Shown here in pieces: positions 7,853 to 21,681 of a stretch of DNA of 64,000 nucleotides. Each line of letters opens with the position of its first letter. Within the stretch, counting starts at the first letter, position 1. Below the pieces are notes generated by a model. The model had not been told where the DNA came from. It worked only from the letters and a program-made list of their open reading frames with translations, and did not search any database. A program made the translations under genes and the position numbers. The stretch comes from an uncultured Oscillospiraceae bacterium (GTDB taxonomy: Bacteria > Bacillota > Clostridia > Oscillospirales > Ruminococcaceae). The stretch covers positions 1 to 64,000 of the forward strand of contig CASFKY010000054.1 in NCBI GenBank assembly GCA_949295465.1. The letters run 5' to 3'.

Positions 7853-8860
7853 ATGCCCCTTATCAGCGTGATCACCAGCGTATACGACGCCCGGGAACAG
7901 CTGCCCCTCTGCATCCAGAGCATCCTGAACCAGACCCTCTCCGACCTGGAACTGATCCTGGTGGAGGACGGCAGCCCCAACGGCTGCGGCGAAATCTGCG
8001 ACCAGTGGGCCCTGCGGGACCCCCGCATCCGGGTCATCCACAAGCCCAACGGGGGCCCTGCCAGCGCCAGCAACGCGGGGCTGGAGGCTGCCCGGGGCCG
8101 GTATATCGGTTTTGTGGACTCGGATGATCTTGTCGAGCCCACCTTTTATGAGACTCTCTACCAGGCTCTTCTGGAAAACGACTGTCAGATCGCGGCCTGC
8201 GGGGCCGAGGGCATCGACGAGGAGGGTCATCCCCTGCCGGACATCACGGTGCAGAGCAAGCTCACCGGCAAGCAGGACGCGCTGGACCTCTTCTACGATA
8301 TCTTCCAGACCGGCACCATGTACGGGATGCTCTCCTGGAACAAGCTCTTCGACGCTCGGCTCTTCAAGGAGCGGGGCATCCGATACGATGAGTCCATGTT
8401 TTTCGGGGATGACGCCAGCATCCTCCATCTGGTATACGAGGGGGCTCAGATCTACTGCCTGAACGACAAGCTCTACCACTACCGCACCCGCGTCGGCAGC
8501 ATCACCTCGGCGGTCTTCCCGCCCCGCAAGCTGGACGATCTCACCATGTACTGGGACTGGCTGTGCTGGTTCCGGGATCGGGGCGACAAGCCCGACCTGA
8601 CCCAGTGGGCCTACGCCTGTTACTGGCGGGTATTTTACCTGTTCTATGCCATGGCCGCGGAGAGCGGCTCTCTCCGGCTGGACCAGGTGCGCCAGGGCTT
8701 TGCTTACCACCGCACCCATCTGGCCTCGGTGCGCGGGCAGCTGCTGGCCTGCCCCCACATCTCGTCTTTCGAAAAATTCCGTCTCCGGCTCTTCCTGTTC
8801 AGCCCAAATCTCGCCTATCAGCTGGCCAGGGTCTGGGGCCGGCTGCATCCCGGCGGCTGA
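7853..8860 (+). CDS. GT2 family glycosyltransferase
   Basis: This 335-residue GT-A protein starts MPLISVITSVYDAREQL, with VED at 37-39, HKPNGG at 63-68 and DSDD at 89-92. The usual PVYN is replaced by SVYD. A SWNKLFDARLFKERGIR segment and FFGDDASI follow. The first in-frame candidate is a TTG at 7835, but ATG 7853 has AAAGGAG (7840-7845) at a good distance and matches the start of its paralogues. It shares long blocks with the next gene (8912) at both protein and DNA level. Role: one glycosyl addition in the cytoplasm, specificity unknown. Confidence 0.9.
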   Translation: MPLISVITSVYDAREQLPLCIQSILNQTLSDLELILVEDGSPNGCGEICDQWALRDPRIRVIHKPNGGPASASNAGLEAARGRYIGFVDSDDLVEPTFYETLYQALLENDCQIAACGAEGIDEEGHPLPDITVQSKLTGKQDALDLFYDIFQTGTMYGMLSWNKLFDARLFKERGIRYDESMFFGDDASILHLVYEGAQIYCLNDKLYHYRTRVGSITSAVFPPRKLDDLTMYWDWLCWFRDRGDKPDLTQWAYACYWRVFYLFYAMAAESGSLRLDQVRQGFAYHRTHLASVRGQLLACPHISSFEKFRLRLFLFSPNLAYQLARVWGRLHPGG

Positions 8861-11126: not shown

Positions 11127-12191
11127 TTGGTTTCCCCTTTTTTCACGGTGGTCATCCCCGTATACAAGGGTGTGGATTTTCTGGAGGGCTGTGCGGAAAG
11201 CCTTTTGGCCCAGACTTTCCGGGATTTTGAGGCCCTTTTTATTGAAGACGGCAGCCCGGACGAATCCGGCGCTCTGTGTGACCGCCTGGCTGCCCGGGAC
11301 GAACGCTTTGTCAGCCTGCACCAGCCCAACGGCGGCGTCACCAGCGCCCGCAACCACGGCATCCGGGCCGCCCGGGGCCGGTGGCTGCTGTTTCTGGACC
11401 AGGACGACCGCTTTGCCCCCGGCCTGATGCAGGCAGTTTTTGAGGCGCTGGGCAAGTCTTCGCCGGAGGACCTCGTCCACTGGGCGTTCACCGGCGTGCG
11501 GCAGCAGGCCGGCCTCCTGCCCCCGGAAGCCGGCGGCGAGCCCATCCGCTTTTACAGCCAGCGGGAACTGGGGCTTTTTTACGGGGCCGGCAACACCCAC
11601 TATATCTGGACCAAGCTCTTCTCGGTGGAATTTTTGCGGGAGCACTCCCTGTATTTTGACGAGCGCATCCAGGACGGCACCGACGATCTGCCCTTTGTGG
11701 TGGCCTACTGGCACGCCTGGTTTTCCTGTCACCCCGGGGGGCGGATTCTCTACCTGAAAACGCCCTATTACTACTATGAGATGGGCAACGAGGCCAGCGT
11801 CAGCAACCGGCTCCAGCCCTATCAGCCCAGCCATCTGGCCATGTTCACCGATCTGCTGCGGGACTATCTCACCCTCTACAAGGTGCCCGAAGAGGATTGC
11901 TTTTTGCTCTGCCGCCAGGCCCTGCACACCCTGAGCTATGGTCTGTATTCGGCCCGGGGCCCGGCCCGCCGCCGGGCGGCCCGCCAATTGTGGAACGCGC
12001 CGGAGTGCCGCCGCCTGCTGGATTTCATGGGCAGGCAGCATTTTTACTCCCCCTTCTATCTGCCCTGGCGGGCCCGGGCGGCCTGGCTCTGCGCCGCCCT
12101 GTTCGGCAGTTTTCTGGGCGGTCGGTTTTTGTACGAAAAATGCGACTGGCTGGGCTGGTATCTGCTGGGCGGCCGCTGGAAACGGCTGTGA
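11127..12191 (+). CDS. GT2 family glycosyltransferase (DQDD type, TTG start)
   Basis: This 354-residue GT-A protein has VVIPVYKGVDFLEG, IED at 39-41, HQPNGGVTSARNHG and DQDD at 91-94 in place of DSDD. The only sensible start is TTG 11127, nine bases after GGAAGGAG; no in-frame ATG fits. The C-terminal half, with a long GNEASVSNRL tail and a final basic helix, matches the next gene and sets the pair apart from the other GT2s. NGTDDLPFVVAYW-like residues (QDGTDDLPF) supply the acidic base motif. Substrate unknown. Confidence 0.88.
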   Translation: MVSPFFTVVIPVYKGVDFLEGCAESLLAQTFRDFEALFIEDGSPDESGALCDRLAARDERFVSLHQPNGGVTSARNHGIRAARGRWLLFLDQDDRFAPGLMQAVFEALGKSSPEDLVHWAFTGVRQQAGLLPPEAGGEPIRFYSQRELGLFYGAGNTHYIWTKLFSVEFLREHSLYFDERIQDGTDDLPFVVAYWHAWFSCHPGGRILYLKTPYYYYEMGNEASVSNRLQPYQPSHLAMFTDLLRDYLTLYKVPEEDCFLLCRQALHTLSYGLYSARGPARRRAARQLWNAPECRRLLDFMGRQHFYSPFYLPWRARAAWLCAALFGSFLGGRFLYEKCDWLGWYLLGGRWKRL

Positions 12192-13404: not shown

Positions 13405-13448
13405 CTTACGGATATCATCGATTGAAAAAACAGAGGAATAAAATCAAG

Positions 13449-14309
13449 ATGGCCAACACCGAAAACCAAACCTGGACCACCATCATCCGGCCCAAAACCG
13501 GCTGGTTTGACATTGACCTGCGGGAGCTCTGGAAATACCGGGACCTGGTGGGTATGTTCGTCAAGCGCAATTTTGTCGTGTACTACAAGCAGACCATCCT
13601 GGGTCCGCTGTGGATCCTGCTGAACCCACTCATCACCACCGTGATCTTCAACGTGGTGTTTGGCGGCATCGCCGGCCTTGCCCCCGGCGGGGTGCCCAGC
13701 TTCCTGTTTTATATGGCCGGCAACACCATCTGGACCTTCTTTGCCGGCTGCATCAACAACACAGCCAATACCTTCGTCACCAATGCGGGGGTGTTCGGCA
13801 AGGTGTATTTTCCCCGCCTCACCGTGCCCTTCAGCCAGGTGATCACGGCGCTGCTCAACTTTCTCATCCAGTTTGCCATGTTCCTGTGCTTCTGGGTCTA
13901 TTTTGCCCTGGCGGAGGGGAACGTGCGCTTCACCCTGTGGGCCCTGCTGCTGCCGGTGCTGATGGTGGAAGTGATGCTGATGGGGCTGGGCGTGGGCATC
14001 ATCGTCTCCAGCCTCACCACCAAATACCGGGATCTGGCCATTGCCGTGGGCTTCGGCGTCCAGCTGTGGATGTACGCCACCCCCGTGGTCTACTCCATGG
14101 ACACCCTCTACAACCAGCCCAAGCTGGCCTTTCTGGTCAAGCTCAACCCCATGACCGCCCCGGTGGAGATGTTCCGCATGGCCACGCTGGGCACCGGCAC
14201 CTTCACCCTGTGGCAGTTCTGGTACAGCGTGATTGCCACTGTCGTGCTGCTGGCCATCGGCGTCATCCTGTTCAGCCGCATCGAAAAGACCTTTATGGAC
14301 ACGGTCTAA
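13449..14309 (+). CDS. polysaccharide ABC exporter, membrane subunit (Wzm/TagG type)
   Basis: This 286-residue integral membrane protein is the channel half of an ABC-2 exporter for undecaprenyl-linked polysaccharide. LRELWKYRDLVGMFVKRNFVVYY is the amphipathic entry helix of this family; I count about six hydrophobic segments, including LGPLWILLNPLITTVIFNVV, TLWALLLPVLMVEVMLMGL and the PVVYSM region. It is followed directly by its ATPase. I chose ATG 13449, preceded by AGAGGA; an in-frame TTG at 13422 lacks a ribosome site. The pairing with an extended Wzt-like ATPase argues for O-antigen or teichoic-acid type export rather than Wzx/Wzy, of which there is no sign in the window. Confidence 0.9.
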   Translation: MANTENQTWTTIIRPKTGWFDIDLRELWKYRDLVGMFVKRNFVVYYKQTILGPLWILLNPLITTVIFNVVFGGIAGLAPGGVPSFLFYMAGNTIWTFFAGCINNTANTFVTNAGVFGKVYFPRLTVPFSQVITALLNFLIQFAMFLCFWVYFALAEGNVRFTLWALLLPVLMVEVMLMGLGVGIIVSSLTTKYRDLAIAVGFGVQLWMYATPVVYSMDTLYNQPKLAFLVKLNPMTAPVEMFRMATLGTGTFTLWQFWYSVIATVVLLAIGVILFSRIEKTFMDTV

Positions 14310-14328
14310 CCGGGAGGGAGCCGAAAAC

Positions 14329-15606
14329 ATGGAAAATCTCACACAAAACCGGGAGCCGGTGATCCAGATCACCGGCCTGAAAAAACAATACAAGCTGGGC
14401 CAGATCGGCGGCGGCACCCTCACCGCCGACTTGCAAAGCTGGTGGGCCCGCCTGCGGGGCAAAGAGGATCCCAACCTGGTGATCGGCACCGATACCCGGC
14501 TGTTCGGCACCACCTTCATGGCCCTGAACGGGGTTGACCTGACGGTGTACAAGGGCGAGGCCCTGGGCATCATCGGCCGCAACGGCGCCGGCAAGAGCAC
14601 CCTGCTCAAGATCCTCTCCCGCATCACCGCCCCTACCGAGGGGGAGATCCGCCTGAAAGGGCGGGTGGCCAGCATGCTGGAGGTGGGCACCGGCTTCAAC
14701 AACGAGATGACCGGCCGGGAGAACATCTACATGAACGGCGCCATCCTGGGCATGACCAAGGCCGAGGTGGACTCCAAGATCGACCAGATCATCGAGTTCA
14801 GCGAGTGCGGCGACTTCATCGACACCCCGGTGAAACGCTATTCCAGCGGCATGTTCGTCAAGCTGGCCTTTGCGGTGGCCGCCCATCTGGACTCGGAGAT
14901 CATGGTGATGGACGAGGTTCTGGCCGTGGGCGACATGAAGTTCCAGCAGAAATGTCTGGGCAAGATGAGCGATGTGGCCGGCCAGGAGGGCCGCACCGTC
15001 TTGTATGTGAGCCATAACATGAGCACCATCCGCCAGCTGTGCACCCGCTGTATCGTGCTGGACAAGGGGCGGGTCATCTTTTCCGGCGACGTGGAGGAGG
15101 CCATCGCCATCTATATGGACACCACCGACGTGAACGTGGTGCACTATGACCTGCGGTCGGTGGGGCGCCAGACTCCCAGCGCCGGCAAGCGGCTGTTCCT
15201 GGAAGAGCTGCGCTTTCTGGACAAGGAGAGCAGCGTCTTCTCCAACACCGAGACCATGAAGGTCCAGATCCGCTGGCATGTAAATGAGCCCTTCAGCGGC
15301 ATCAACATGAAGATGAACCTGCACTACCGGGATTCCAGCCCGGTGGGCATCACCCACCCGGTAAGCCTGGGCGCCGCCGAGCCGGGCAAGACCTATACCA
15401 CCGTCTTTGAATTTGACCCCTCCCTGCTGGGCGAAGGGCAATATTTCTTCTATCTGGACATCTTTGAGCGGTCCCTCACCAATCCCGTCTGCCTGGACAA
15501 GCCCAGCACCGAATTCCACTTTGAGGTGACCAACGAGGACTTCACCATCCCGGAATGGCCCGCCGGCTGGGGTCGCATCCACTTCCCCCCTGTGCGGATT
15601 CTGTAA
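14329..15606 (+). CDS. polysaccharide ABC exporter, ATPase with C-terminal carbohydrate-binding domain (Wzt type)
   Basis: This 425-residue cytoplasmic ATPase energises the Wzm-like subunit. Walker A is GRNGAGKST (about 83-91), the ABC signature region YSSGMFVKLAFA begins near 171 and Walker B is IMVMDEVLAVGD (about 191-202), with the switch histidine in YVSHNMS. A loop of about 35 residues before Walker A is typical of Wzt/TagH proteins. Residues from about 265 to the end form an extra beta-rich domain like the Wzt C-terminal carbohydrate-binding module, which in characterised systems recognises the chain terminus. GGGAGGGAG precedes ATG 14329. Such a domain implies export of a chain with a specific terminal group. 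Confidence 0.92.
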   Translation: MENLTQNREPVIQITGLKKQYKLGQIGGGTLTADLQSWWARLRGKEDPNLVIGTDTRLFGTTFMALNGVDLTVYKGEALGIIGRNGAGKSTLLKILSRITAPTEGEIRLKGRVASMLEVGTGFNNEMTGRENIYMNGAILGMTKAEVDSKIDQIIEFSECGDFIDTPVKRYSSGMFVKLAFAVAAHLDSEIMVMDEVLAVGDMKFQQKCLGKMSDVAGQEGRTVLYVSHNMSTIRQLCTRCIVLDKGRVIFSGDVEEAIAIYMDTTDVNVVHYDLRSVGRQTPSAGKRLFLEELRFLDKESSVFSNTETMKVQIRWHVNEPFSGINMKMNLHYRDSSPVGITHPVSLGAAEPGKTYTTVFEFDPSLLGEGQYFFYLDIFERSLTNPVCLDKPSTEFHFEVTNEDFTIPEWPAGWGRIHFPPVRIL

Positions 15607-15624: not shown

Positions 15625-16611
15625 ATGACAAAACCTGATCTTTTTATCTGCCATACCCAATACCATGTGCTGGCCTCCCTCATCAAGGTGCTGGCAAAGC
15701 CCCGCACGGCGGACATCATCCTCAGCGAGTCCATCCCCGGGCGGGAGGAACTGGCCCGGCGGCTTTCGGCCAGCGGGGTATTCCGACAAGTACTCACCTA
15801 CCCGGACGAGCACTGGCCCGCCCCGCCTCAAAAGGGCTGGCGGGCCCTGCTGGGGCATCGGATGCAGCGGCGGGCCCTGCGGCTGGCCGGCTTTTCCCTG
15901 GACCCCCGCCTCTACGGGCAGATCTGCATCTACAACGACTGGACCCCCCTGGGCCGCTGGTTACAGGACTGGGGTGCCCATTATATCCTGGGAGAGGACA
16001 CCCGCAACCACCTGGCCCACCCCTCCAACATCCACATCGACCGCCAGCGGGCCCTGCCGGACTTTGCCCGGCGGCAAAAAAGCGGCCGGGGATACCTGTA
16101 CTGGGGCGGTTACCGGGGCGTGGACGGGGTGGAGATGAGCGACCCCTCCCAGGTGCCCTACTACCAGGAAAAGGCCATTGCCCTGGACCCCCTGAATCTG
16201 CTGGAGGGCTTCGGCCCGGACAAGCGTTGGGTGATCCGCCGGGTTTTTGTGAGCAGCGAGCTGCCCCCCATGGACCGGCCCGCCTGCCTGCTTTTGCCCC
16301 GCAGCTTTTTTGTGGATCACGACCTGCCCAGCCAGGAGGCCCAGAACCGGCTGTGCCGGGACGTGGTGGCCCGGTATGCCAAGGGCTACCAGCTCTTTAT
16401 CAAAACCCATCCCCGGGACACCACCGACTACCACGCGCTCTTCCCCGATGCGGTGGTGCTGGATCGGTTCATGCCCTCCGAGCTGCTGGACTACTGCTTT
16501 GAGGTGCGCTTTGCCCGGGCGGTGGGTCTGTGCACCGCCTCGGTGGCAAACCTGAAATGCGCCGACGAAAAGATCAGCCTGGGATACGACTTCATCGAAC
16601 CCTATCGCTGA
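15625..16611 (+). CDS. GT52-like (sialyltransferase-type) glycosyltransferase
   Basis: The 328-residue product starts DLFICHTQYHVLASLIKVL, the N-terminal pattern of GT52/polysialyltransferase-like GT-B enzymes, and has FIKTHPRDTTDY near residues 259-270, equivalent to the K-x-HPR-D motif of CMP-sugar and polyol-phosphate transferases. A CTASVANL segment near the C-terminus resembles the donor-site S/T motif. It sits between the exporter ATPase and a CMP-sugar synthetase homologue, which fits a transferase using a CMP-activated acid sugar. AGAGG lies seven bases before ATG 15625. No signal peptide or membrane helix. Family assignment is moderate; the donor is inferred from context. Confidence 0.6.
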   Translation: MTKPDLFICHTQYHVLASLIKVLAKPRTADIILSESIPGREELARRLSASGVFRQVLTYPDEHWPAPPQKGWRALLGHRMQRRALRLAGFSLDPRLYGQICIYNDWTPLGRWLQDWGAHYILGEDTRNHLAHPSNIHIDRQRALPDFARRQKSGRGYLYWGGYRGVDGVEMSDPSQVPYYQEKAIALDPLNLLEGFGPDKRWVIRRVFVSSELPPMDRPACLLLPRSFFVDHDLPSQEAQNRLCRDVVARYAKGYQLFIKTHPRDTTDYHALFPDAVVLDRFMPSELLDYCFEVRFARAVGLCTASVANLKCADEKISLGYDFIEPYR

Positions 16612-16689: not shown

Positions 16690-17439
16690 ATGAAGATCAT
16701 CGGTGTGATTCCTGCCCGCTATCGCTCCTCCCGCTTTCCCGGCAAGCCTCTGGCCGACATCTGCGGCCGGCCCATGATCTGGTGGGTCTATCAGCAGGCC
16801 AGCAAGGTGAAAGAGCTGGACAAGCTCTATGTGGCCACGGACGACGAGCGCATTGAACAGGTCTGCCGGCAGTACGGCATGGACGTGGTGATGACCAGCC
16901 CCGACCACCCCACCGGCAGCGACCGGGTGGCGGAAGTGGCCTCCAAGGTAGAGGGAGACCTCTTCATCAACATCCAGGGGGATGAGCCCCTCATGGACCC
17001 GGAGATCATCCGCCAGGCCATCCGGCTTTTTGACGACCCGGAGGTCTATTTCGGCAGCCTAAAAAAGAAGATCACCGACCCGGATCTGATCGCGGCGCCC
17101 AGCACTGTCAAGGTGGTCACCGACGACCATATGGACGCCATGTATTTCTCCCGCAACCCCATCCCCAGCGGCGCCAAGGACACCGACCATGTGGATGTGT
17201 ACAAGCATGTGGGCATTTACGCCTACAAGCGGGATTTCCTTTTGAAATTTGGTGCCATGCCCCAATCCTCCCTGGAAATTGCCGAGTGCGTGGAGCCCCT
17301 GCGGGCCATGCAGGCCGGCTACAAGATGCGCTTTGGCGAAACCACCCTGGAAAACATCAGCGTGGATCTTCCCCAGCATCTGGAGCAGGTGATTGCCGAG
17401 ATCAAGCGCCTGGGGCTGGACAAGGCCATGGGCCTGTAA
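16690..17439 (+). CDS. kdsB: KdsB-like CMP-ulosonic acid (Kdo-type) cytidylyltransferase
   Basis: The 249-residue protein matches 3-deoxy-manno-octulosonate cytidylyltransferase along its length: VIPARYRSSRFPGKPLADI (CTP loop), VATDDERI, SPDHPTGSDRVAEV, FINIQGDEPLMDP (metal-binding D), STVKVV, FSRNPIP, HVGIYAYKRDFL and the closing VDLPQHLEQV. KdsB couples CTP to Kdo to form CMP-Kdo. AAAGGTG lies nine bases before ATG 16690. No KdsA, KdsD or lipid A genes occur in the window and the organism looks Gram-positive, so the natural substrate may be another 3-deoxy-ulosonate, perhaps the product of the adjacent aldolase. Fold and reaction class are secure; the exact sugar is not. Confidence 0.85.
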   Translation: MKIIGVIPARYRSSRFPGKPLADICGRPMIWWVYQQASKVKELDKLYVATDDERIEQVCRQYGMDVVMTSPDHPTGSDRVAEVASKVEGDLFINIQGDEPLMDPEIIRQAIRLFDDPEVYFGSLKKKITDPDLIAAPSTVKVVTDDHMDAMYFSRNPIPSGAKDTDHVDVYKHVGIYAYKRDFLLKFGAMPQSSLEIAECVEPLRAMQAGYKMRFGETTLENISVDLPQHLEQVIAEIKRLGLDKAMGL

Positions 17440-17480
17440 CCCTCACGCCTGCCCTGCGGGGCGGAGAAAGGACCGTTATC

Positions 17481-19112
17481 ATGATGGAAAACGACATCAA
17501 ACTTCTGGACTGCACCCTGCGGGACGGCGGCTATCTGGTGAATACCCAGTTCGGGGATAAATTCATCAAGGGCTTTATCCAAAGCCTCACCGACGCCGGT
17601 GTGGACGTGATCGAGGTGGGCTTTTTGAAGGATGAGCCTCACCAGGCCGGCAGCACCATCTTCAACAATTCCGCCCAGATCAGGCCCTACATGCCCAAGA
17701 ACCGGCGGGAAGGCGTGCGCTATGTGGCCCTGTCGGACTACAGCCGCTACCACATCGAGAACCTGGACCCCTGCGACGGCACCAGCATCACGGGGGTTCG
17801 GGCCTGCTTTTTCAAAAAGGAGCGCAAGGACGTTCTCCCCTTCTGCCGCCGCATTCTGGAATTGGGGTATGACCTGTATATCCAGCCGGTGGACATCCTG
17901 GGCTACTCCGACGAGGAGCTGCTGGACCTTATCCGGGACGTAAACCAGCTCAAGCCCCTGGCCCTCTCGGCGGTGGACACCTTCGGCAGCATGTTCCCCG
18001 AGGATCTGGAGCGGCTGTTCGGGGTGATTCACGCTCACCTGGACCCCTCCATCCGCATGGGCTTCCACAGCCATAACAACATGCAGATGAGTTTTGCCCT
18101 CAGCCAGGAATTCGTCAAGCTGGCCAAGGGTCTGCGGAACATCACCGTGGACGCCACCCTCTGCGGCATGGGCCGGGGTGCCGGCAACACCAACACCGAG
18201 CTGGTGGCCGATTACCTGAACCGCAAATGGGGCAAGCACTACGATCTGGACGTGCTGCTGGACGCGGTGGACAACTATATGGGCAGCATGAAAGCCCGGT
18301 GCACCTGGGGCTATTCGGTGCCCTATTTCCTGGCGGGCATCTACAGCGCCCATGTGCACAACATCACCTATCTCTCTGAAAAGCCCAGCATCCGCACCAA
18401 GGACATGCGCTATGTGCTGGAACAGCTGGACCCCGCCATCCGCAAGCGGTATGACTACGACCTGCTGGACAAGCTCTATGCCGGCCGTCTGGCCAGCACC
18501 GGGGACGACAGCGAGAGCCGCGCCGCCTTTGCCAAGCTGGTGCAGGGCCGCACGGTGGTCCTGGTGCTGCCCGGCCCCAGCAGCCGTACCCATGAGGAGG
18601 AGATCCGCCGCTTTATCCGGGAGAAGGATGCCTTTGTCATCACGGTGAACCAGCTGCCCTTGCCCGAAAATCCCCTGCCGGATCTGGCCTTTTTCTCCAA
18701 CCCCAAGCGGTATGACTACTGGAAGCACTCCGAGCGATTTGAGGAGGCCCGGAAGCTCTTTACCTCCAACCTGGGTGAAAAGGCCGGCGAGGGCAAGCTG
18801 GTGGTGAATATCGCCCCCCTGATGCGGCCGGGCTTTTACTATGCCGACAACGCGGCTCTCCTGCTTTTGACTCTGCTGGATGGCTGCCAGCCCGGGGCGG
18901 TATACATCGCCGGCCTGGACGGCTACGACACCAAAACCCAGAACTTCGCCAGCGCCGACATGGAGCGCAGCTTTGACGCCCAGCAGGCAGCGGCCATCAA
19001 CGAGGGGCTGGCTGCCGCCCTGAAGGACCTGAAGGAACACCACCAGGGCGTGCTGCCCCGCTTCCTCACTCCCTCCCGCTTTGCCCTCATCTTTGAGGAG
19101 GGCCAGGAATGA
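17481..19112 (+). CDS. DRE-TIM pyruvate aldolase fused to a DUF115-like domain
   Basis: The 543-residue protein joins two parts. Residues 1-340 are a metal-dependent aldolase of the 4-hydroxy-2-oxovalerate aldolase/HMG-CoA-lyase superfamily: LLDCTLRDGGY (about 8-18), DVIEVGFLKDE, the metal-binding GFHSHNNM (H about 195 and 197) and TVDATLCGMGRGAGN. Such enzymes join pyruvate to an aldehyde to give 4-hydroxy-2-oxo acids. Residues from about 354 on (VVLVLPGPSSRTHEEE, FVITVNQLPLP, PDLAFFSNPKRYDYW, AVYIAGLDGYDT) resemble DUF115/MptE-like and, more distantly, GT42 sialyltransferase-type Rossmann domains. AAAGGA precedes ATG 17481 by eight bases. It overlaps the phosphatase gene and follows kdsB, so it may replace KdsA/NeuB as the condensing enzyme. 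Confidence 0.75.
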   Translation: MMENDIKLLDCTLRDGGYLVNTQFGDKFIKGFIQSLTDAGVDVIEVGFLKDEPHQAGSTIFNNSAQIRPYMPKNRREGVRYVALSDYSRYHIENLDPCDGTSITGVRACFFKKERKDVLPFCRRILELGYDLYIQPVDILGYSDEELLDLIRDVNQLKPLALSAVDTFGSMFPEDLERLFGVIHAHLDPSIRMGFHSHNNMQMSFALSQEFVKLAKGLRNITVDATLCGMGRGAGNTNTELVADYLNRKWGKHYDLDVLLDAVDNYMGSMKARCTWGYSVPYFLAGIYSAHVHNITYLSEKPSIRTKDMRYVLEQLDPAIRKRYDYDLLDKLYAGRLASTGDDSESRAAFAKLVQGRTVVLVLPGPSSRTHEEEIRRFIREKDAFVITVNQLPLPENPLPDLAFFSNPKRYDYWKHSERFEEARKLFTSNLGEKAGEGKLVVNIAPLMRPGFYYADNAALLLLTLLDGCQPGAVYIAGLDGYDTKTQNFASADMERSFDAQQAAAINEGLAAALKDLKEHHQGVLPRFLTPSRFALIFEEGQE

Positions 19113-19621
19113 GAGACATCCGCCTGCTGGTGCTGGATGTGGACGGCACCCTGACCGACGGCAAGATCTATATGGGCGAAAGGGGCGAGGTCTGCAAGGC
19201 CTTTTCCATCAAGGACGGGCTGGGCCTGCGGCTGCTGGCCGACTCGGGCGTCACCCTGGCCATTCTCACCGGCCGGGAGAGCCAGATCGTCCGCAACCGG
19301 GCCGCCGAGCTGAACATCGACCATGTGATCCAGAACATCCAGAACAAGCCTGAGGCCCTGCGCCGTCTTTGCCAGGAGCTCTCCATCCCCCTGGAGGAAA
19401 CCGGCTTCATGGGGGATGACCTGATCGATCTGCCGGCCATGGAGCTGTGCGGCCTCACGGTCTGCCCCTGCGATGCCGCCCGGGAGGTAAAGGCCCGGGC
19501 CGACTTCGTCTCGGATCTGCCCGGCGGGGCGGGGGCTGCCCGTCAGTTTGCCGAGTGTTACCTGGACGAGCGGGGGCTCTGGGCTCCCCTGGCCGCCCGC
19601 CGGTTTGGAGTAAAGCTGTGA
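19109..19621 (+). CDS. KdsC-like HAD phosphatase
   Basis: The 170-residue HAD hydrolase has the nucleophile motif LDVDGTLTDG (D10, D12), the KdsC-specific KAFSIKDGLGLRLL, ILTGRESQIVRNRA and the metal-binding GFMGDDLIDLPAM. KdsC removes phosphate from 3-deoxy-ulosonate-8-phosphate; related members dephosphorylate sialic-acid precursors. ATG 19109 overlaps the aldolase-fusion stop (ATGA) and its own stop overlaps the next start (GTGA), so the products are probably made together. With the KdsB-like and aldolase genes it forms a synthesis, dephosphorylation and activation set. The substrate is inferred. Confidence 0.82.
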   Translation: MRDIRLLVLDVDGTLTDGKIYMGERGEVCKAFSIKDGLGLRLLADSGVTLAILTGRESQIVRNRAAELNIDHVIQNIQNKPEALRRLCQELSIPLEETGFMGDDLIDLPAMELCGLTVCPCDAAREVKARADFVSDLPGGAGAARQFAECYLDERGLWAPLAARRFGVKL

Positions 19622-21681
19622 AGGCATCATCACTCAAAAAATGGATTCCCCTGCTGGCTGCGCTGCTCTGCCTGGGATTCTGCCTGTGCCTGTTCGGGGG
19701 CGTCTGGATTCTGAAAGTGCGCCCCGCCCAGAATAAGAGCACTTCGGCGCGCATCAGCGACGATTATTCTCTCTATACCGGGATGGTGGAGGACTCTCTC
19801 TCTGAGACCTTTGCCTGCGACGAGGACCTTTACGCTCTGGCCTTTGTGTTCGGGGTGAGCGAGGTGCAGCCCCAGGGCGAACTGCTGCTCACCCTCACGG
19901 ACGCCCAGACCGGGGAGGTACTGGCCCAGAGCCGGGGCGAAATGGGCAATATCCTGCCCGGGCAGTATACCGGCCTCGGGCTGGACGTGCCGGTGGATGG
20001 CCGGGAAGGAGCCCGGTACACTCTCACCCTCACCCCCTCTTATCAGGGAGAAGGCCGCCTCTGTCTGGGCTATTCCGGCAGCACGGCGGAGGGCGTCGGC
20101 CTCACGGCGGACGGCCAGCCCCTGGAAGGGCAGCTGGCTCTGCTGGTGACCACCGGCCAGATCGGCTCTTTTCTGAGCCGGTATTACTGGGTGATGGCCC
20201 TGTCCCTGAGCCTGATCCTCAGCCTGGCTCTGTGGGCGGCGCTGGCCCTGCGGCCGGCCCTGCACCGGCTGTATTTTGCGCTGGTGCTCTCTCTGGGGCT
20301 GGTCTACTGCCTGGTGCTGCCCCCCTACTCTGCGCCGGATGAGCAGTTCCACATCAACCAGAGCTTCTCCATCGCCACCACCCTCACCAGCCGGCTTCCT
20401 CTGGGCTCGGTGCCTCTCAATGAGACCTACCGCCGGCCCGGCGACCAGAATCCCCTGTTGCAGGACCAGAACACCACCGTGTTCACCTGGCAGGAATTTG
20501 CCGATACTCTCTTTACCCGCAGCCCGGATTCGGCGGGGGATTTCCAGCTGTACACCGAGATGCAGGCTGACGACAGCGATCTGCTCTACTGTGTCAGCTC
20601 CCTGGCGGTGGCCCTCTGCTTTGTCTTGAAGCTGGGCTTTACGCCCACCCTGGTGGTTGGGCGGCTGGCCAATCTGGCCGTCTATGCCCTGCTCACCTCC
20701 TGGGCCCTCAAAAAAGCCCCCTTCGGCAAAAAGATCTTTGCCTGTGTGGGGCTTTTGCCCATGAGCCTGCATCTGGCGGCCTCCTTCAGCCGGGACTGCC
20801 TGACCCTCGCCTTCGCGTTTCTCTTCACCGCCCTCTGTCTGAACGGGGCCTTCGGCTCCCAAAAGCCTCTTGGCCCCTTTGACTGGGCGGCGCTGATCCT
20901 CACCGGGGTGTTGCTGGTGCCCGCCAAGGCGGTCTATTTCCCTCTGGCGGCCCTCTTTTTGCTGATCCCCGCCGTCCGATTCGGGCGGGTGGCAAAGCAC
21001 AGCCGGCTGCTGAAAGCCGGTTTTCTGGTGCTCTGCGCCCTGGCATTTCTTTTGTCCGGGGCCCGCTACACCATCAGCGGGCTGTTCACCCGGGCCGACT
21101 CGGCCGAGGAGCTCACCGCCCAGATCGAGACGATGGACGAGAATGTGGCCCAGAGCTGGAACCTGGAAGAGCAGGCCCAGAACCCGGACTCCATCTGCTA
21201 TTCCCCGGGCTATATCCTCACCCACCCGGTACAGACCGCCGCTTTGGTGGGCAACAGCCTGATTGAACAGGGCGAGCACTATCTCAAGACCCTGGTGGGC
21301 GGCAAGCTGAGCTATTACAGCTTGGATCTGAGCTGGGGCTGGGTGCTGCTTTTGTACCTGCTGCTGGCCTTTTCCCTGCTGCCCGAGCCGGGCGAAGGGG
21401 ACTGGGGCAAGCCCTCCGGCCGCATTTTTGCCGCCCTGCTGGCGCTGGCCTGTATGGGGCTGGCGGTGGCCGGCTGCATCACCTGGACCCCCACCTACTA
21501 CACCTCCATCTACGGGCTGCAAGGCCGGTATTTCCTGCCGGCGCTGCCTTTGCTCTGCCTGGCGCTGCGCCCGGCCTGGCTTCGCCGGGCCACTCCTTCC
21601 GGCGCTTTGCCCGCAGTCTTTTTGGCCTTTGCCAACATGGGCATCCTGCTCAACGCGTTTCTCGCGATTCTGGCCCGCTGA
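19618..21681 (+). CDS. DUF2142 family polytopic membrane protein (GT-C-like)
   Basis: The 687-residue protein has an N-terminal hydrophobic segment (WIPLLAALLCLGFCLCLFGG), a beta-rich extracytoplasmic region to about residue 175, and then around ten membrane segments. PPYSAPDEQFHINQ just after a membrane segment is the DUF2142 hallmark, comparable to the loop acidic motif of GT-C transferases using lipid-phosphate sugars. The C-terminal YGLQGRYFLPALPLL also fits. It starts at GTG 19618, overlapping the phosphatase stop, with GGAG seven bases before. It probably modifies the polysaccharide outside the membrane using a polyprenyl-phosphate sugar, as suggested by the GtrA and DPM1-like neighbours. 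Confidence 0.8.
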   Translation: MKASSLKKWIPLLAALLCLGFCLCLFGGVWILKVRPAQNKSTSARISDDYSLYTGMVEDSLSETFACDEDLYALAFVFGVSEVQPQGELLLTLTDAQTGEVLAQSRGEMGNILPGQYTGLGLDVPVDGREGARYTLTLTPSYQGEGRLCLGYSGSTAEGVGLTADGQPLEGQLALLVTTGQIGSFLSRYYWVMALSLSLILSLALWAALALRPALHRLYFALVLSLGLVYCLVLPPYSAPDEQFHINQSFSIATTLTSRLPLGSVPLNETYRRPGDQNPLLQDQNTTVFTWQEFADTLFTRSPDSAGDFQLYTEMQADDSDLLYCVSSLAVALCFVLKLGFTPTLVVGRLANLAVYALLTSWALKKAPFGKKIFACVGLLPMSLHLAASFSRDCLTLAFAFLFTALCLNGAFGSQKPLGPFDWAALILTGVLLVPAKAVYFPLAALFLLIPAVRFGRVAKHSRLLKAGFLVLCALAFLLSGARYTISGLFTRADSAEELTAQIETMDENVAQSWNLEEQAQNPDSICYSPGYILTHPVQTAALVGNSLIEQGEHYLKTLVGGKLSYYSLDLSWGWVLLLYLLLAFSLLPEPGEGDWGKPSGRIFAALLALACMGLAVAGCITWTPTYYTSIYGLQGRYFLPALPLLCLALRPAWLRRATPSGALPAVFLAFANMGILLNAFLAILAR

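Follow-up and report, generated by a model that had tools for sequence, protein, structure and literature searches.

The window analysed here is a stretch of 64,000 nucleotides from an uncultured Oscillospiraceae bacterium (contig CASFKY010000054.1), and our subject is an operon within it whose core, at positions 16690-19621, comprises three genes encoding a homologue of KdsB, the synthetase of cytidine monophosphate (CMP)-activated 3-deoxy-D-manno-octulosonic acid (Kdo), a two-domain aldolase, and a KdsC-type HAD phosphatase. We consider it very probable that this operon serves both the synthesis and the use of a CMP-activated 3-deoxy-ulosonic acid, with the two-domain aldolase doing the work of both KdsA and KdsD. 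Judging from the sequences compared, the sugar is most likely Kdo or a close isomer, intended for a surface polysaccharide exported by an ATP-binding cassette (ABC) transporter. The original prediction, made from the letters of the window, had proposed that the aldolase takes the place of KdsA, and this proposal is strongly supported by the exclusion of KdsA and KdsD and by a slot that the two versions share within one genus.

To examine the shared slot, 396 genomes of the family were searched for KdsB, which was present in 44 of them at 45 places, and the neighbourhoods of 44 places and of the window were compared. The gene after KdsB was the two-domain aldolase at 42 of the 45 places, which are not independent events since many of the KdsB genomes are congeners (21 genera), and KdsB was followed by KdsA and KdsD at the three others (G009, G688, and G743). 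The aldolase is the commoner of the two versions in the family, and no KdsB place with both versions or with neither was found in the stretches examined at these 45 places. In the operon of G009, KdsA (TIGR01362, 389 bits for a cut-off of 314) and KdsD (TIGR00393, 305 bits for a cut-off of 204) lie between KdsB and KdsC.

All three KdsA genomes belong to a single genus, g9, which also holds the aldolase-bearing genome G616. Between G616 and G009, the permease (95% identical), the ATPase (95%), the transferase (79%), KdsC (89%), and the DUF2142 protein (82%) are all conserved, whereas the KdsB proteins are only 39% identical. Among the KdsA-using congeners, KdsC is 86-87% and the transferase 80-83% identical (86% and 83% for the G009/G688 pair). 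At the DNA level, G616 and G009 are 85.5% identical up to base 8704 of the G616 stretch, where the match breaks in the last stretch of the transferase gene; it resumes at base 11201, just inside KdsC (82%, then 90%). No DNA alignment was obtained between the 2.5 kb KdsB-aldolase segment of G616 and the 2.7 kb KdsB-KdsA-KdsD segment of G009. The two blocks have thus been exchanged in one slot, and either version may be the older. Since KdsC and the transferase show only the usual divergence across the exchange, the aldolase probably supplies the same phosphorylated ulosonate as KdsA, or a nearly identical one, and the retention of these two genes appears to be the strongest evidence for such a product. 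That the aldolase would stand in for KdsD as well, and that KdsB seems to change along with it, are additions to the original prediction.

Trees of the flanking genes were consistent with this exchange. In the transferase tree, the window, its sister genome G001, and G052 group with the KdsA operon of G009, apart from six other aldolase operons (100/99). In the KdsC tree, from which L121 was left out as its aligned stretch was too short, the window groups with G001, G052, G047, L079, and the same KdsA operon, apart from five of the same six (100/100). The motifs K-x-HPRD and EDT were invariant in the 12 transferases aligned. We also considered that KdsB might follow the rest of the operon, and rejected this since the KdsB of the window does not lie beside that of G009 in the KdsB tree. 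In that tree, the sequences of two further genomes, G126 and G208, group together, with those of E. coli and G434.

The genome from which the window comes is 84% complete, and G001 is 99% complete. No KdsA over the curated cut-off was found in either of them, and the two weak matches to the KdsA model in the own genome are 3-deoxy-D-arabino-heptulosonate 7-phosphate (DAHP) synthases (378 and 376 bits, cut-off 268). No KdsD over the TIGR00393 cut-off was found in the own genome either. The lack of both genes, which had been noted for the window, therefore holds for the whole genome at these cut-offs. The same was observed genome-wide in all 18 genomes tested that pair the aldolase with KdsB, the own genome being one of them: none had KdsA over the cut-off, and none had KdsD over its own (best match below it, 113 bits in G299). 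In the set of 20 genomes formed by these 18 and two with KdsA, KdsD over the cut-off was present in exactly the two that carry KdsA, so that the two versions are mutually exclusive in these genomes.

Two wider draws gave a similar picture. Among 149 relatives, 13 had KdsB over the cut-off, 11 of them beside the aldolase, one (G009) beside KdsA, and one (G126) beside neither; of 391 genomes drawn from the class, 10 had KdsB, beside the aldolase in eight, beside KdsA and KdsD in G434, and beside neither in G208. After merging of the three draws, the 52 distinct KdsB genomes divide into 46 with the aldolase, four with KdsA, and two with neither. KdsB copies from genomes lacking both the aldolase and KdsA were seen at L159:9558-10304 (minus strand) and L174:4702-5466, the latter being followed by a gene of the dihydrodipicolinate synthase (DHDPS) family. 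Upstream of each lies a gene of 400-480 residues; the two look alike by eye, and the L174 copy had no Pfam match.

The aldolase was also followed in the best 80 of at least 547 relatives, taken from at least 593 stretches in species genomes, and these named loci come from Bacillota, Bacteroidota, Helicobacter, Fretibacterium, Fusobacterium, and Gastranaerophilales. In 60 of the 80 loci, a cytidylyltransferase gene is no more than 300 nt away from the aldolase; in four it is farther off. With a line for canonical KdsB set at 180 bits in this analysis, 31 of the 60 adjacent cytidylyltransferases are canonical and 29 fall below it; the six of these 29 that were scanned all matched PseF best, below the PseF cut-off. 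No match to NeuB, KdsA, or KdsD was found in the flanks of the 80 loci by single-query phmmer searches (E 1e-5), some flanks being cut by contig ends. The genome-wide search for KdsA covered 50 of the loci, from 49 genomes, 39 of which had no KdsA over the cut-off. In a Leisingera plasmid, the aldolase, KdsB, and a HAD gene stand in a row, and a close-relative search of viral contigs gave no relative.

The assignment of the three genes themselves is borne out by their profile scores, their shared strand, and the gap of 41 nt between KdsB and the aldolase, and the four-base overlap of the aldolase with KdsC that had been reported is confirmed by the coordinates. KdsB scored over the cut-offs of NF003952 (290 bits, cut-off 193) and TIGR00466 (176 bits, cut-off 155) and under that of the stricter equivalog NF003948 (195 bits, cut-off 281), and matched the PDB sequence 1gq9 (E=4e-59). 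KdsC stayed under the cut-off of the KdsC equivalog NF007019 (165 bits, cut-off 208). The aldolase belongs to the DRE-TIM/HMGL-like superfamily by its Pfam score over the cut-off and by its R-D and H-x-H motifs, and the DCTLRDGG and H-x-H motifs described earlier are indeed present. Among the matches listed, the closest named genome is that of Fournierella massiliensis, whose aldolase is 93% identical.

In enzymes of the DRE-TIM family, an aspartate and two histidines hold the metal and an arginine helps to form the pyruvate enolate. A loss of catalytic residues, which would have spoken against the proposed function, was not seen: in an alignment of the window protein with those of the 80 named loci, R14, D15, H196, and H198, and also E45, N200, and H291, show no variation in any of the 81 two-domain sequences. 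The HMGL-like region spans about the first 260-310 residues and is followed by some 200 more, which form a second domain that the original prediction missed. In this domain, N390, N407, R410, S429, N430, G478, D480, G481, and T530 are conserved in 79-80 of the 81 sequences, and such near-invariance makes ligand binding there probable. Our leading guess, prompted by the joint absence of KdsD and KdsA, is that the C-terminal domain possibly supplies the aldose phosphate.

The C-terminal stretch of the window aldolase had no Pfam match, and no PDB sequence matched the domain under E 0.01. Several candidate identities were examined and rejected. The MptE-like model matched the domain in six of 42 members at E 0.1 (best E 0.0018, below the cut-off), and every match to MptE-like or SteA was sub-threshold. 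A KdsD-like SIS isomerase was given a probability of 0.1% by hhalign. D-lyxose isomerase matched two of the 42 members at E 0.1, and in one Helicobacter member it exceeded the Pfam cut-off (E 7e-5, residues 3-74), a match judged too isolated. The motifs of the domain may resemble those of GT42 sialyltransferases. As a separate observation, the G052 aldolase is broken, close to the C-terminal end, into two frames that overlap (L046:9197-10812), owing either to an assembly error or to a recent frameshift.

At 12 two-domain loci in the set of relatives, KdsB is directly upstream in 11 (one match being short and weak), the twelfth begins near a contig end, and KdsC is present in nine. No match to KdsB or KdsC was found in the stretches examined at 15 loci whose relatives lack the C-terminal domain, 14 being single-domain proteins and one being fused to an IspD-type cytidylyltransferase. 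A fusion of this kind was seen at L058:5788-7536, where a single HMGL-like aldolase domain is joined to a cytidylyltransferase of the IspD/TarI type (221 bits for the D-ribitol-5-phosphate cytidylyltransferase subfamily).

In the pathway that we propose, the DRE-TIM domain would generate the pyruvate enolate with the help of R14 and of a divalent metal bound by D15, H196, and H198, and addition of this enolate to an aldose phosphate would yield a 3-deoxy-2-ulosonate phosphate. Arabinose- and ribose-5-phosphate are the obvious candidates for the aldehyde, and Kdo-8-phosphate or a close isomer would be the most likely product. Dephosphorylation by KdsC, activation of the sugar with cytidine triphosphate (CTP) by KdsB, and its transfer by the glycosyltransferase (15625-16611) would follow. 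We infer pyruvate as the donor, together with the aldehyde, the product, and the role of the C-terminal domain, from these sequence comparisons.

Several observations weigh against this pathway, or against Kdo as its product. KdsB differs together with the synthase, and its sugar-domain segments vary among aldolase-linked types, so the product may be an isomer and not Kdo. The phosphatase is not constant: with two queries, KdsC was found at 27 of the 42 aldolase places of the family, another HAD at four, and none at 11, one of which is cut by the end of the stretch. Likewise, among the 60 named loci with an adjacent cytidylyltransferase, KdsC lies within 300 nt in 24 and in the flank of 30, and 12 of the remaining 30 have another HAD. 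Of the triad, the pairing of KdsB with the aldolase is regular in the family (42 of 45 places), and KdsC is a less constant partner (27 of 42). G126 and G208 have a KdsB with neither aldolase nor KdsA, and 10 of the 49 named aldolase genomes also have KdsA over the cut-off (one from Lachnospiraceae and nine from Helicobacter, Gastranaerophilales, Fretibacterium, Fusobacterium, and Bacteroidota). Finally, the position aligned with His21 of DmpG, which we take to be the catalytic base of 4-hydroxy-2-oxovalerate aldolase, is Tyr18 in the window protein, and among the 81 sequences it is a tyrosine 69 times, an arginine 10 times, and a phenylalanine twice; the acid-base step must accordingly differ, and the mechanism of that enzyme is not transferable. 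Concerning one of the KdsA-bearing genomes, G160 (locus L082, Lachnospiraceae), we noted two KdsA genes over the cut-off and an aldolase accompanied by a non-canonical cytidylyltransferase.

Part of this evidence would fit a different sugar in the same role, namely a stereoisomer or a chain-length variant such as the C5 epimer of Kdo made from ribose-5-phosphate, a heptulosonate, or a nonulosonate. We give this alternative a substantial probability, though one short of even. It would account for a KdsB identity of 39% next to 79-95% for the other operon genes of the two congeners, for the divergence of aldolase-linked KdsB proteins in the sugar-binding domain, and for the 29 of 60 adjacent cytidylyltransferases under the 180-bit line. 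The lack of KdsD over the cut-off in 18 of 18 aldolase genomes points the same way, since arabinose-5-phosphate would then not be made in the usual manner. Against it stands the conservation of KdsC (89%) and the transferase (79%) across the exchange, near the level between KdsA-using congeners. Kdo as the product would therefore be favoured by the kept phosphatase and transferase and disfavoured by the different KdsB. It is also conceivable, but quite unlikely, that the sugar of the operon comes from a NeuB encoded elsewhere and that the role of the aldolase is unrelated. The original prediction had named such a supply as a refutation, and a NeuB is indeed present in the own genome, on another contig (G000:C46; TIGR03569, 478 bits, cut-off 400). 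However, its cluster (L044:7179-14395) also includes a NeuC homologue (TIGR03568, 399 bits), a PseF-like cytidylyltransferase of its own (71 bits, under the cut-off of its model), and a nucleotidyltransferase, and with these partners it is unlikely to supply the KdsB operon. An aminotransferase and oxidoreductases were also recognised there by eye, and the contig appears to carry a self-contained sialic-type cluster. Of the 39 KdsA-free named aldolase genomes, 14 have NeuB above 200 bits, a threshold set in this analysis (that of Pfam is 22), but 25 do not: four of these had no match and 21 had matches under 46 bits only, which share contigs and places with weak KdsA-model matches, as the DAHP synthases of the own genome do. 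Moreover, the slot is shared with KdsA and KdsD, not with NeuB.

Pyruvate aldolases are reversible, and the aldolase might instead cleave the ulosonate as a catabolic or salvage lyase while KdsB activates scavenged Kdo. The two exceptional genomes in which KdsB stands in another context, beside a DHDPS-family gene in G208, could be read in this way. We nevertheless hold cleavage to be quite improbable, given that the aldolase occupies the exact place of two biosynthetic genes, with genes for an exporter and a transferase alongside, and that the scan of the operon genes showed none for uptake or catabolism. Polysaccharide loci consist of shuffled modules, and three unrelated sugar genes could in principle have met by chance in a polysaccharide island. 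The probability of this is minimal in our view, with the aldolase following KdsB at 42 of 45 places in the family, a cytidylyltransferase within 300 nt at 60 of the 80 named loci, which span several phyla, and KdsB matched at none of the 15 loci whose relatives lack the C-terminal domain.

The remaining 16 of the 80 named loci (L107, L109, L110, L118, L123, L127, L136, and nine more) all have an acetolactate-synthase-like enzyme dependent on thiamine pyrophosphate (TPP), with scores of 478-1416 bits. RfbH is present in nine of them, RfbF and RfbG in seven, and a HAD phosphatase of one tested type in 12; no match to a KdsB/NeuA-type cytidylyltransferase was found in these 16 loci. Among the 64 loci that bear a cytidylyltransferase, RfbH or TPP-enzyme matches occurred in 11, at no more than 246 bits. 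The TPP-linked loci likely encode a pathway to branched 3,6-dideoxy sugars activated by cytidine diphosphate (CDP), in which the product of the aldolase may be the donor for the TPP enzyme. A further context resembling that of branched sugars is a row of genes on a Desulfobaculum bizertense plasmid (L065, 5837-10005), where, by the record annotation, a single-domain aldolase relative is lined up with RfbH and two half transketolase genes. A bolder proposal, which we regard as possible but doubtful, is that the fusion is a bifunctional, phosphoenolpyruvate (PEP)-independent Kdo-8-phosphate synthase, whose C-terminal domain would make or deliver the aldose phosphate to which the DRE-TIM domain adds pyruvate, and that a 2-keto acid made by the same family feeds the TPP enzyme for long-branched CDP-3,6-dideoxy sugars. 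On this reading, a single aldolase family would feed two kinds of unusual surface sugar.

The three genes belong to a longer operon, which the original prediction had not noticed and whose gene order is ABC permease, Wzt-like ATPase, glycosyltransferase, KdsB, aldolase, KdsC, and DUF2142 protein. The coordinates given for the ATPase are those of a long open frame, and the true start is probably later. The start of the DUF2142 gene was inferred from the sister genome, the mechanical frame opening at 19447.

Features of the operon in the window, with their coordinates, strand, and supporting evidence
Feature	Coordinates	Strand	Evidence
ABC-2 type permease of a polysaccharide exporter, operon gene 1	13422..14309	+	Pfam PF01061, 61 bits; position kept in sister operons
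Wzt-like ABC exporter ATPase	14233..15606	+	ABC_tran, 79 bits; Wzt_C, 25 bits, below cut-off; position kept in sister operons
Glycosyltransferase, candidate user of the CMP-activated sugar	15625..16611	+	Polysialyltransferase and GT52 models, all matches sub-cut-off
KdsB-type CMP-Kdo synthetase homologue	16690-17439	+	NF003952 and TIGR00466 over cut-off
Two-domain aldolase, 543 aa	17481-19112	+	Pfam HMGL-like, 70 bits (cut-off 29)
N-terminal DRE-TIM (HMGL-like) aldolase domain, residues 1-310	17481..18410	+	R14/D15 and H196/H198 intact
C-terminal domain of the aldolase, residues 345-543	18513..19109	+	Near-invariant polar residues (alignment)
KdsC-type HAD phosphatase	19109-19621	+	TIGR01670, 152 bits (cut-off 107)
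DUF2142 membrane protein, after KdsC	19618..21681	+	Pfam PF09913, 128 bits; position kept in sister operons

To our knowledge, the synthases of ulosonic acids (KdsA, NeuB, and their kin) all condense PEP. No description of an aldolase acting in Kdo synthesis in place of KdsA and KdsD was found in the titles and abstract openings listed from the open-access literature, and an aldolase-based route to a Kdo-like sugar would apparently be a second, undescribed one. If the proposal is true, a pyruvate aldolase is a second biosynthetic solution for Kdo-like surface sugars, found in the place of KdsA and KdsD in many Bacillota operons and beside CMP-sugar synthetase genes in other phyla. It would explain the KdsB genes of KdsA-free bacteria and predict sugars of the Kdo type on gut commensals, Gemmiger among them. 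Members annotated as 'aldolase catalytic domain-containing protein', and their unannotated C-terminal domain, would gain a function. Congeners of genus g9 with either version should then carry the same or a near-identical sugar.

Compared with the Kdo pathway of E. coli (KdsD-KdsA-KdsC-KdsB), the window has KdsB and KdsC homologues over curated subfamily cut-offs, and the very slot of its aldolase is taken by KdsA and KdsD in three species of genus g9; unlike that pathway, its own genome is without KdsA or KdsD over the cut-off and has the two-domain aldolase instead. Kdo genes of the ordinary type are reported in an island of Bacillus coahuilensis (PMC4744853), so that a KdsB in a Gram-positive bacterium is not new in itself. 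With 4-hydroxy-2-oxovalerate aldolase (DmpG/BphI), the window aldolase shares the HMGL-like domain and the R-D and H-x-H motifs, but its TIGR03217 score (78 bits) is far under the equivalog cut-off of 286, it has a tyrosine for His21 of DmpG and a fused C-terminal domain, and no aldehyde dehydrogenase is found among the scanned operon genes. The closest solved sequence, PDB 3dxi (E 2e-27, residues 6-288), has the GGY motif in common with it, but is a 320-residue chain without the C-terminal domain, and its title, 'Putative aldolase', gives no function.

As in the sialic-type pathways (NeuB/PseI/LegI with NeuA/PseF/LegF), an ulosonic acid would be activated with CMP, and nearly half of the adjacent cytidylyltransferases (29 of 60) are not canonical KdsB; in contrast to these pathways, the aldolase would replace the PEP-dependent synthase, and NeuB is unmatched in the 80 named flanks. 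Yersiniose-type clusters, lastly, combine RfbF, RfbG, and RfbH with the TPP enzyme YerE, and we know of no aldolase that is part of the yersiniose route. The likeness to these clusters lies in the 16 of 80 named loci that pair the two-domain aldolase with an acetolactate-synthase-like TPP enzyme.

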